Shown: piece after piece, positions 1 to 13,076 of the stretch
Layout of the letters: each line of letters starts with the position of its first letter
How positions within the stretch are numbered: the stretch's first letter is position 1
Notes under the pieces: model-generated
The model's database searches: none
What the model saw: the letters and a program-made list of their open reading frames with translations, nothing else
Told to the model about the DNA's origin: nothing
Position numbers and translations under genes: made by a program
IMG/VR virus record: IMGVR_UViG_3300044796_000229
Coordinates: 1-64,000 of that record
Direction: 5' to 3' (one strand)
DNA: 64,000 nucleotides
Source: a virus

Positions 1-71
1 TACCGCCCAACCCTAGCACAAGCACAATCCGATCAACACGCCGCCGATCTGCTGGAATATGGAGCGGGACG

Positions 72-7801: not shown

Positions 7802-9103
7802 ATGTCAAAGATCATTCGCACTCCATCACGCGCCAAAGGCGGCATTACCGATGCTGAAAAAGCGGCAATGGCTGCACATTCCAGGCTCTGGATTGAGCGC
7901 GCTTTTCGCACTGCACCGATTGAACCGGACAAGATCATCCCGGCCATTGAAGGCATCTATGCCGCTGCAGGATTGAAAAAACCGCGCATTGTAATTGTGC
8001 CGTCTCCGATGGTCATGGCGTTTGCTTATGGTGCGTCGGCGGCGATCTGGTGCGAACGACAGGCCAAAATGCTTTCGGACAGCGCCACGTACAGCGCCAC
8101 GGACATCGCCACGTACAGCGCCACGCGCAGCGCCACGCACAGCGCCACGGACAGCGCCACGCGCAGCGCCACGCACAGCGCCACGGACAGCGCCACGCGC
8201 AGCGCCACGGACAGCGCCACGCACAGCGCCACGTACAGCGCCACGTACAGCGCCACGCACAGCGCCACGGACAGCGCCACGCGCAGCGCCACGTACAGCG
8301 CCACGGACAGCGCCACGCGCAGCGCCACGGACAGCGCCACGGACAGCGCCACGCGCAGCGCCACGGACAGCGCCACGCGCAGCGCCACGCGCTTGGCGAT
8401 ACCAGAAAAAGGCGCAGCATCGGCCTGCCAAGAAATGGCCGGTAAATTCGGACTCGAATGCGCAATGCGCTGGAATAATGTCTATCAGGGCGGCAATATG
8501 TGGGCGCCGTGGGAATGCTATCTTTCAGCAGCGCGTGACATTCTTAAATTAGACCTGCCATCTCACACTGCTTATGCGCATTGGGAGCAGGCTGCGATCC
8601 ATGGTGGGTTCCGCGTCATGCATCCAGAATTCTGCATGGTCAGCGATTTTCCCGAAGTGTTTAAAGTTGACGATCAGAATCTCCCGCATTGCGAGGATGG
8701 ACCATCGCATCGCTGGCGCGACGGTTGGAGCCTCTATCATTGGCACGGCGTGCGCATTCCCACTGAATGGATTGAGAACAAGGCTGGCCTGACAGCTAAG
8801 ACGGCGCTGACATGGGCGAACGTTGAGCAACGTCGCGCGGCCTGTGAATTAGTCGGGTGGGACCGCATCTTGTCGGAACTGAAATCCAAAACTATTGATC
8901 GTGACGAAGATCCGATGATTGGCGAGCTTGTCGAAGTTACGCTTCCGGACATCGGAAAAGAGAAGTTTTTACGTGTAGTTTGTGGCACAGGCCGAAAATT
9001 CGCCTTACCTGTTCCTCCCCAGATGAAGACCGCGCTGGAAGCGAACGCATGGTCCTACGCGGTCGATACCAAAGTGATTCGCTCTCTGGAGGCGCGTACT
9101 TGA
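7802..9103 (+). CDS. DUF6745-like protein with SATx repeat insert
   Basis: GGAG precedes the ATG. The 433-residue protein has an ordinary N-terminal part (residues 1-93), a block of 26 tetrapeptides Ser-Ala-Thr-x (residues 94-197) and an ordinary C-terminal part with LPHCEDGPSHRWRDGWSLYHWHG, which resembles DUF6745. The variable fourth residue is Tyr, Asp, Arg or His. The function is unknown. The repeat sits between conserved parts and remains in frame because each unit is 12 bases. It ends in a TGATG overlap with the HNH gene. Confidence 0.7.
   Translation: MSKIIRTPSRAKGGITDAEKAAMAAHSRLWIERAFRTAPIEPDKIIPAIEGIYAAAGLKKPRIVIVPSPMVMAFAYGASAAIWCERQAKMLSDSATYSATDIATYSATRSATHSATDSATRSATHSATDSATRSATDSATHSATYSATYSATHSATDSATRSATYSATDSATRSATDSATDSATRSATDSATRSATRLAIPEKGAASACQEMAGKFGLECAMRWNNVYQGGNMWAPWECYLSAARDILKLDLPSHTAYAHWEQAAIHGGFRVMHPEFCMVSDFPEVFKVDDQNLPHCEDGPSHRWRDGWSLYHWHGVRIPTEWIENKAGLTAKTALTWANVEQRRAACELVGWDRILSELKSKTIDRDEDPMIGELVEVTLPDIGKEKFLRVVCGTGRKFALPVPPQMKTALEANAWSYAVDTKVIRSLEART
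8081..8392 (+). repeat. 12-base tandem repeat array, 26 units
   Basis: The unit is AGCGCCACG followed by one variable codon: TAC, GAC, CAC or CGC. Only unit 3 departs from this in its fixed part (Ser to Ile). Unit order by residue begins Y, D, Y, R, H, D, R, H, D, R. All variable codons end in C and differ only at their first two bases. Confidence 0.95.
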
Positions 9104-9918
9104 TGAGCACCAAGGGTATCTGCAGCCCCATTTTGGAAAGACTTGAGAGCCGCCTCGACAAATCTACGCCCAACGGATGTTGGGAGTGGATAGGCTGGAG
9201 ACACGAACAAGGTTATGGGCGAATCCGCGCTCACGGTTCTGGGGAAAGTAAGTTTCTCAGGACGCATCGGGTCTCTTGGGAAATTCACAAGGGGCCAATT
9301 CCGGCCGGAATGGATGTGCTGCATCGGTGTGATAATCCGCCGTGCTGCAATCCGGCACACCTATTTTTCGGAACGGATTTGAACAACATGCAAGACATGG
9401 CCGCAAAGGGGCGCGGCTATAGCCACAACAAGTTCAAAACGCACTGTCCGCAAGGGCATCCTTATTCTGGCGACAATCTATATGTCGAAAGAAACAGCGG
9501 GACGCGCCGCTGCCTCATCTGCAAACGCGCCAAAGACAAACGCCGCATCAAACCCACGGAGAAATCTATGACCAAAATAATGACCGACAGACCAATGGCC
9601 CAAGGCGACATGCTCATCATTCCTATCGTTTCAATGCCGGCAAACGTGAAAGCCGCAACAGCCGATGGTGGTTACTACATCGTGGCACACAGCGAAACCG
9701 GTCACCACCATGTGATCGAAAAGCGCCGTGCTGAAGTTTTCGAATCCGCAGACGATCAATTCGTCGCCTATATCCGCACGCTCGGTGACGGCGCGGACAT
9801 CGAGCACAAGCGCGACTTTCATACTCACGAAACGGTTCATCTCCCGCCGAACCAAAACTTCGAAATCCGCCGGCAACGCGAATATGTGCCGGAAGGGTTT
9901 CGTCGCGCGCAGGATTGA
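9103..9918 (+). CDS. HNH endonuclease fused to a small phage protein
   Basis: The start at 9103 overlaps the previous stop. Residues 1-155 are an HNH nuclease of the homing type: HRVSWEIHKGPIP, then LHRCDNPPCCNPAHLFFG (the core H-N-H with its zinc cysteines) and a second zinc knuckle CPQGH...CLICKRAK. Without a stop codon the frame continues into MTKIMTDRPMAQGD and a 117-residue protein ending FRRAQD. ATG 9568, with GGAGA just upstream, can start that second protein alone. The nuclease would nick or cut DNA to spread its own gene. Whether a fusion is made, two proteins, or both is open. Confidence 0.75.
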   Translation: MSTKGICSPILERLESRLDKSTPNGCWEWIGWRHEQGYGRIRAHGSGESKFLRTHRVSWEIHKGPIPAGMDVLHRCDNPPCCNPAHLFFGTDLNNMQDMAAKGRGYSHNKFKTHCPQGHPYSGDNLYVERNSGTRRCLICKRAKDKRRIKPTEKSMTKIMTDRPMAQGDMLIIPIVSMPANVKAATADGGYYIVAHSETGHHHVIEKRRAEVFESADDQFVAYIRTLGDGADIEHKRDFHTHETVHLPPNQNFEIRRQREYVPEGFRRAQD

Positions 9919-11932: not shown

Positions 11933-12129
11933 CACCAGCCCCATCCCGCACCCGGATACCGCTGGTCGAGAAGTTTCCCCGTCAGCGCATGGCAATAGGC
12001 AGCGTTTGACGGTTTCGTGGCTTCGTCGAAACTGGAACACCGTGGATTGTTTGTCGGGGTGTAAGCGAATTGTGTGCCACAGCCAGTAAGGGCCAGAAGG
12101 CCAAAAATGGCGAAAGCGCGCGTTCTCAT
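11932..12129 (-). CDS. Small lipoprotein
   Basis: The 65-residue product starts MRTRAFAIFGLLALTGCGTQ, a type II signal peptide with lipobox LTGC (Cys at about residue 17). After lipidation about 49 residues would face the periplasm. It may alter the host envelope as a moron protein or act in lysis. It overlaps the Cys-rich repeat gene by 4 bases. Confidence 0.7.
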   Translation of the reverse strand: MRTRAFAIFGLLALTGCGTQFAYTPTNNPRCSSFDEATKPSNAAYCHALTGKLLDQRYPGAGWGW

Positions 12130-13076
12130 GTGCGTTCCGCCAGCGCCTTCATGTCGGCGAGTGCATCTTCGTTCTGGTCGTAGAACCGGCCCGGATTGAT
12201 CTTGAAACCCGGTGCGCTGGCGTCATAGATCATCATGGCGGCAAGCGGCGTGTTGTAGAACGCCTCCAGATCGCGACCCGCTTGGCCTGCCAGCGTCACG
12301 GCCCATCCAGCACGGCAATGCGTATTCTCGCATTTGTGCCACCTTCTCATGTCGAGAGCGCCCGGAGCCGACACAGCGGCATAGATCGTTTTGTGAATGT
12401 CGGGGATGACCGGAACTGGCGGAGGGCCAAGCCTACGCAGCGCTTCGCCTTTTGCAGGCGGAATGGCCTGGATGTTTTCCTTGTCGTCAGCCCATGCCAG
12501 ATTGGAGCAGTCCGAGCAGCGCGAGCAGCGCGAGCAGCGCGAGCAGCCCGAGCAGTCCGAGCAGTCCGAGCAGCGCGAGCAGCGCGAGCAGCCCGAGCAG
12601 TCCGAGCAGTCCGAGCAGCCCGAGCAGCGCGAGCAGTCCGAGCAGCCCGAGCAGCGCGAGCAGCGCGAGCAGCCCGAGCAGCCCGAGCAGCGCGAGCAGC
12701 GCGAGCAGTCCGAGCAGTCCGAGCAGTCCGAGCAGTCCGAGCAGCCCGAGCAGCGCGAGCAGCCCGAGCAGTCCGAGCAGCCCGAGCAGCGCGAGCAGTC
12801 CGAGCAGTCCGAGCAGCCCGAGCAGTCCGAGCAGTCCGAGCAGCGCGAGCAGCGCGAGCAGCGCGAGCAGCGCGAGCAGTCCGAGCAGTCCGAGCAGTCC
12901 GAGCAGCCCGAGCAGCGCGAGCAGTCCGAGCAGTCCGAGCAGCCCGAGCAGCGCGAGCAGTTGGTGCAATTCTTACAGTTTTTCAGGCTGTCTAGCGCCG
13001 CCTGCGCGGCTTCGAGCGAGCCAAAATATTCAACCGAACAGCGATTGCCGTTCGCATCTGTGAGCCAAGTTATCAT
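12126..13076 (-). CDS. Protein with 51 Cys-Ser-x tripeptide repeats
   Basis: AAGGA precedes the ATG at 13076. The 316-residue protein has an N-terminal 39 residues (MITWLTDANGNRCSVEYFGS start), a solid block of 51 Cys-Ser-x units (residues 40-192) and a 124-residue C-terminal domain with CENTHCRAGWAVTLAG and FYDQNEDALADMKALAE. That C-terminal domain resembles a stand-alone protein of alphaproteobacterial phages. The variable residue is Asp, Arg or Gly. More than 50 cysteines spaced every three residues could bind metal ions, form disulfides or stack along one face of a repeat fold. No function is known. Confidence 0.75.
   Translation of the reverse strand: MITWLTDANGNRCSVEYFGSLEAAQAALDSLKNCKNCTNCSRCSGCSDCSDCSRCSGCSDCSDCSDCSRCSRCSRCSRCSDCSDCSGCSDCSDCSRCSGCSDCSGCSRCSGCSDCSDCSDCSDCSRCSRCSGCSGCSRCSRCSGCSDCSRCSGCSDCSDCSGCSRCSRCSDCSDCSGCSRCSRCSRCSDCSNLAWADDKENIQAIPPAKGEALRRLGPPPVPVIPDIHKTIYAAVSAPGALDMRRWHKCENTHCRAGWAVTLAGQAGRDLEAFYNTPLAAMMIYDASAPGFKINPGRFYDQNEDALADMKALAERT
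12501..12959 (-). repeat. 9-base tandem repeat array, 51 units
   Basis: On the coding strand each unit is TGCTCG plus one codon chosen from GAC, CGC or GGC (Asp, Arg, Gly); the final unit is Cys-Ser-Asn. The first six bases are essentially invariant while the third codon varies irregularly. A flanking CKNCTN suggests that the array grew from an older Cys-x-x motif. Confidence 0.95.

Follow-up and report, generated by a model that had tools for sequence, protein, structure and literature searches.

A single codon per unit varies in the tandem zATx arrays of phage DUF6745 proteins: probable concerted evolution with selection for mixed residues

How can a tandem array in a phage gene vary at one codon in every unit and stay uniform elsewhere, even at silent sites? 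This question is raised by a gene in the window, a stretch of 64,000 nucleotides from a 71.7-kb phage record in IMG/VR. The 433-aa product consists of an N-terminal domain, an array of Ser-Ala-Thr-x (SATx) tetrapeptides and a DUF6745 domain (Table 1). From the sequence alone, 26 SATx units with Tyr, Asp, His or Arg at x had been proposed, and all of them are present: we found exactly 26 in-frame units of 12 bp, and Tandem Repeats Finder reported 26.0 copies with a period of 12 at 8079-8390. The x codons GAC (9), CGC (8), TAC (5) and CAC (4) follow each other, unit by unit, as YDYRHDRHDRDHYYHDRYDRDDRDRR. That one codon alone varies is correct for this array with the exception of unit 3, in which a second codon is changed.

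Table 1. Features of the array gene and its surroundings in the window.
Feature	Position	Strand	Basis or context
Array-protein gene (N-terminal domain, zATx array, DUF6745)	7802..9103	+	ORF; Pfam DUF6745
N-terminal domain, residues 1-89, family-conserved	7802..8068	+	Alignments of 22 and 20 homologues; AlphaFold2
Array, 26 units AGCGCCACG + GAC/CGC/TAC/CAC, residues 94-197, predicted helix	8081..8392	+	
Unit 3, ATC for AGC (Ile for Ser), sole unit changed outside x	8105..8116	+	
DUF6745 domain, PF20530 match, residues 257-425	8570..9076	+	Pfam
Small conserved gene, phrog_27831-like, directly 3' of array gene in relatives	9568..9918	+	
Cys-Ser-x array, TGCTCG + GAC/CGC/GGC	12505..12960	-	Inside gene 12126-13076, unrelated protein

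The match to DUF6745 (PF20530) scored 73.5 bits against a Pfam cut-off of 27, and in the same search the array itself was matched by no family. The original prediction had described the array as an insert that interrupts DUF6745. Instead, it lies N-terminal of the Pfam match and represents a spacer at the same position throughout the family. The spacer is missing in one relative (L159), which is nevertheless 49 % identical to the window protein, and is reduced to 5 units in another (L189), so the fold can do without the array. We disregarded matches to NCBIfam Sdr/Clf adhesins (E about 1e-4, far under the cut-off) and weak PADLOC matches, which lie in the low-complexity array or near it. A pentapeptide-repeat protein was also rejected, as the array has a period of 4 and lacks a Pfam match to such a family. 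Our literature search found no paper in which DUF6745 is named.

Codon bias alone had been raised beforehand as a possible cause of the uniformity and was refuted by the usage outside the array, where the gene favors other codons. Here, GCC encodes 8 of 43 Ala (GCG 17, GCA 9, GCT 9), ACG 2 of 14 Thr (ACT 6) and AGC 2 of 15 Ser, while TAC accounts for 1 of 7 Tyr (TAT 6) and CAC for 2 of 9 His (CAT 7). Under the gene's own usage, the log10 probability of finding the Ser codon uniform in the array is about -22, that for Ala about -19 and that for Thr about -22.

Relatives were collected by two types of scans. An exact-pattern scan (same 9-mer at 12-nt spacing) resulted in seven other viral stretches, five of which encode homologues whose arrays number 11 to 72 units and are in part truncated by contig ends; the remaining two, L007 and L013, were left out of the homologue set. 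The other scan was alignment-based and queried conserved flank peptides, which makes the homologue set independent of the array. It returned 53 viral and 13 bacterial loci, the latter including Mesorhizobium, Aminobacter, Pararhizobium, Xanthobacter and Hyphomicrobiaceae; unlike this alignment-based scan, a scan of genome contigs with one protein as the query had no match. L187 and L188 belong to prophages of the soil strains Mesorhizobium sp. B2-3-4 and Aminobacter aganoensis DSM 7051, respectively. In most loci a zATx array occupies the equivalent position; its z residue is Ser, Ala, Gln, Asn, Asp, Gly or Leu. The analysis covered 49 phage and prophage arrays (1,388 units), most of them with alphaproteobacterial hosts. 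Most arrays derive from metagenome assemblies, which may misorder repeats but cannot invent codons, and isolate genomes have the same array pattern as the metagenome contigs. Many contigs end inside an array (L008, L010, L136, L153, L160, L186 and others), as expected if assemblers break at long or mixed repeats.

More distant members of the family carry other period-4 cores. The Mycobacterium prophage prophiGD102-1 shares the DUF6745 C-terminal domain with the window protein and has, at the corresponding place, an array that follows the same logic (CAGCTC[G/C/T]GGG[A/G]C, 46 units), but differs from the window array in its Gln-Leu core and in its variable residues, Gly/Arg/Trp and Asp/Gly. 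Gln-Val and Ser-Ser-Leu cores were found in DUF6745 proteins of a Nocardia plasmid and phage cta39025, respectively. Microcystis phage LMM01 also encodes a DUF6745 protein with a C-terminal domain as in the window protein, and the members from Streptomyces, Nostoc and Deinococcus that we read are array-free. One Deinococcus DUF6745 protein (L211:874-1875) has a leucine-rich-repeat-like N-terminus, and its gene adjoins STM4011 and STM4012 family radical SAM genes.

The rule proposed for the window, variation at one codon per unit, holds in dozens of independent arrays. Within the 49 arrays, mean pairwise diversity was 0.646 and 0.512 at the first two bases of x (x1, x2) and 0.108 at the third (x3), and 0.011 and 0.032 at the silent third bases of the Ala and Thr codons (A3, T3). 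Extra alleles beyond the first, present in at least two copies, numbered 102 at x1, 68 at x2, 1 at A3 and 5 at T3. Between the array consensuses, diversity at A3 and T3 reached 0.572 and 0.605. Silent sites vary between phages and are uniform inside an array; therefore, they have been swept uniform per array, x3 included. The z position is also variable in some arrays, and most arrays vary at x1 and x2 only. The further claim that x always ends in C did not extend to the family: L137, L153, L166 and L185 have T at this base throughout, prophiGD102-1 has G (TGG/CGG/GGG), and AGA, TTA or GAA are interspersed in some arrays. The third base of x is simply homogenized within each array.

We also observed that an array uses a single codon for each type of x residue. 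Among residues with at least three occurrences per array, this was the case for 159 of 169, compared to 17 expected from the usage of the same gene, and unusual x codons such as AGA, TTA and GAA obey the rule as well. Silent variants at T3 are associated with the x residue in the unit that carries them (combined p 5e-6), and no such association was seen with x one unit earlier (p 0.49). A comparison between strains, suggested at the outset as a check for gain, loss and shuffling of units, revealed gains or losses of units. L162 and L164 share a 3' flank of 3,716 bp with 0 mismatches, and despite this identity their arrays are distinguished by several indels of whole units and by a new unit with His. 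Units thus turn over between phages with identical flanks. In L146 and L162, whose flanks are 92.8 % identical over 1,395 bp, the units differ throughout, being NAT (AAC-GCC-ACG) in the former and AAT (GCC-GCC-ACC) in the latter. Repeated blocks of x were longer than in shuffles when all arrays were combined (Fisher p 2e-7); in the window array alone, block duplication was not significant (p 0.55). The extreme is an array from Hansschlegelia (L196:3001-3969), where Asp and Ser alternate strictly for about 50 units, a case of two-unit homogenization.

The residues at x are always mixed. Asp (31 %), Arg (23 %) and Tyr (20 %) are the most frequent ones in the 49 arrays, followed by Ala, Ser, His and Leu. 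Every array contains at least three different x residues; Asp occurs in 49 of 49 arrays, Tyr in 48 and Arg in 43.

Taken together, we consider it probable that the array represents a tandem spacer with rapid turnover, in which concerted evolution is combined with selection for mixed x residues and which forms a long exposed helix. By slippage or unequal exchange, units would be gained, lost and shuffled far more often than bases mutate, and because turnover would outpace base mutation, silent and structural positions would become homogenized per array. Selection at the protein level would keep x mixed, mostly as Asp, Arg and Tyr, so that variation survives amid homogenization at x1 and x2 alone. 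The array would most likely be a long solvent-exposed α-helix running from the N-terminal domain to DUF6745, with the x residues at i and i+4 as a variable polar stripe. Exchange as the agent, and selection for mixed x as opposed to targeted mutation, are what we infer from this pattern.

We simulated a 12-nt array in which whole units were duplicated or deleted at any offset, and this reproduced most of these features. In runs that favored mixed x (scaled S 100-300) and in which exchange made up 99-99.7 % of events, diversity was 0.00-0.07 at A3, 0.01-0.12 at T3, 0.56-0.67 at x1 and 0.48-0.61 at x2, and one codon per x type was found in 95-100 % of cases; the runs overshot x3 (0.15-0.41 versus the observed value of 0.108). 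The simulation demonstrates sufficiency and is no proof; the strong selection for heterogeneity is assumed without a stated reason.

With regard to structure, AlphaFold2 predicted a long helix for the array of both the window protein and L187 at a low pLDDT of about 43-67 (window 43-64); the flanking domains of the window protein were mostly modeled at 80-93 (N-terminal domain about 77-93). Thr recurs once per unit and has a low helix propensity, which counts against the helix; like its exposure, the helix is predicted. A fold search with the window model gave no PDB match at E<=0.001 and no solved relative was found; in BFVD, it matched solely DUF6745-type or unnamed phage models. Several relatives have a small conserved gene after the array gene, in some cases followed by RecT, exonuclease and NinB genes, and the window's own record had no RecT match. 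Judged from gene order, these neighbors suggest an early, cytoplasmic role rather than that of a virion protein. In the window, the small gene is in the same frame as an ORF at 8980-9918, and an HNH_3 endonuclease frame (9103-9567) lies in frame between it and the array gene. Since the two genes directly adjoin each other in relatives, the HNH_3 frame looks like an insertion.

On the other strand, the window contains a second array, built from Cys-Ser-x units. This type (phrog_15341, phrog_31265) resembles zATx in that variation is found mainly at the first two bases of x; it differs in that the protein is unrelated, the period is 3 and the arrays occur in other phages. Repeats of TGCTCGNNC occur in at least 119 viral stretches, where x is Asp, Gly, Arg, Tyr, His or Asn. 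In 67 listed arrays, a few false positives among them, departures from consensus were 0.36 at x1, 0.38 at x2 and at most 0.03 in the Cys codon; silent-site uniformity is partly built in here, because the scan demanded TGCTCGNNC. A generating process shared by both arrays of the window had been proposed. The pattern is indeed the same, but a shared linked machine is unsupported, because the two arrays co-occur in no other phage examined (0 of 46 and 0 of 44). Both searches were positive in the window's own record; two earlier ones, performed without a positive control, were negative as well. The common logic looks like convergence rather than the product of one linked machine. Gly-x dipeptides form a third array type, detected in L176:2595-2894 (x mostly Tyr/Asp/Ser) and L197:1444-1581 (Tyr/Asp/Asn), with variation mainly in the first bases of x.

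The mixture at x could also serve recognition. A widespread phage strategy in which each unit has one programmable residue and shuffling creates new specificities without a mutator is conceivable, and we regard it as unlikely; the array would then be a minimal TALE-like one, with separate origins on two scaffolds or more (xAT-type and Cys-Ser-x). Slightly less likely is a read-out code, in which, by analogy with TAL effectors, the order of x addresses one partner element per unit, and specificity is retuned through diversity. A constant unit with a variable residue on two scaffolds, with overlapping residue sets, would fit such a code, but the order of x was near random in 54 pair and lag tests and the fold search provided no structural match. 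Among these tests, only a weak excess was seen for Asp with Arg four residues later (i, i+4; z 2.8), the direction that stabilizes helices, and Arg-Arg had a z of -2.7; an ordered code in x was rejected, as adjacency is near random apart from the Asp-to-Arg excess. Charge neutrality was likewise discarded as a rule, with a net charge averaging -0.2 per unit, six arrays without Arg and a correlation of only 0.21 between the Asp and Arg fractions. If the order of x were functional, phages would have a modular array for recognition that is very small and is retuned by unit exchange.

A targeted mutator that rewrites x1 and x2 in each unit, by DGR-like reverse transcription or other local hypermutation, would explain why changes are limited to two bases of one codon and why the constant codons are intact even at silent sites; we nevertheless judge it improbable. 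The search for a mutator or reverse transcriptase that had been recommended came back negative: RVT_1 (PF00078) was absent from the window's own record and 34 relatives, all 35 of them array-bearing and possibly incomplete records, with control genomes positive. The 71.7-kb record holds no template copy of the array, which matches itself only. Of the 16 possible NNC codons, C-ending arrays use some far more than others and lack CCC, TGC and TCC; the unit indels between strains also speak against such a mutator. Because the x types behave as copied cassettes, with one codon each and linked silent variants, targeted mutagenesis of every unit is unsupported; an unknown mutator may have acted rarely, followed by copying.

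Even less probable is an unconstrained x that drifts while purifying selection holds the other residues. It would agree with x being the least conserved and probably solvent-facing residue, but diversity at x should then equal that at silent sites, and we observed 0.65 and 0.51 versus 0.01-0.03. In the simulation, neutral x indeed had a diversity about equal to the silent one and not above it, which fails to match the arrays, and drift does not account for the regular presence of Asp and Tyr. We give the least credence to a constraint at the DNA or RNA level, e.g. a binding or recombination site, that fixes nine bases and leaves x as a tolerated gap: the constant bases are letter-perfect within an array, but silent sites differ between phages (A3 0.57, T3 0.61), the core may be Gln-Leu, Gln-Val or Ser-Ser-Leu and a common DNA-level motif across arrays is largely absent.

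Concerted evolution with selection for mixed x is the best explanation of a pattern that is real and general. Silent, structural and diversified positions adjoin within 12 bases; dozens of phages carry this set in dozens of copies, and for this reason concerted evolution and diversifying selection can be separated cleanly. Our literature searches found no description of these phage arrays. The TAL effector unit is helical and comprises 33-35 residues with a variable di-residue, and a TAL effector-like repeat protein was rejected for the window gene, which has a unit of 4, no 33-35-residue unit and no Pfam match to the array. TAL effector arrays are described as near-identical tandem units with hypervariable residues (PMC4522561); the zATx array has a 4-residue unit, and no sequence relation was seen. 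Diversity-generating retroelements are reported to mutate template adenines (PMC3240598). The zATx array is similar in that diversity is limited to chosen codon positions, and differs in having no reverse transcriptase, no template repeat and x types that are copied cassettes. Single α-helix domains, described as bridges between domains (PMC4183817) and as rich in Arg, Glu and Lys (PMC5347031), resemble the array in its predicted long inter-domain helix with charged residues at i/i+4. In contrast to these domains, the zATx array is not Glu/Lys/Arg-rich; about one quarter of its residues are charged or aromatic, and Thr recurs along its length.
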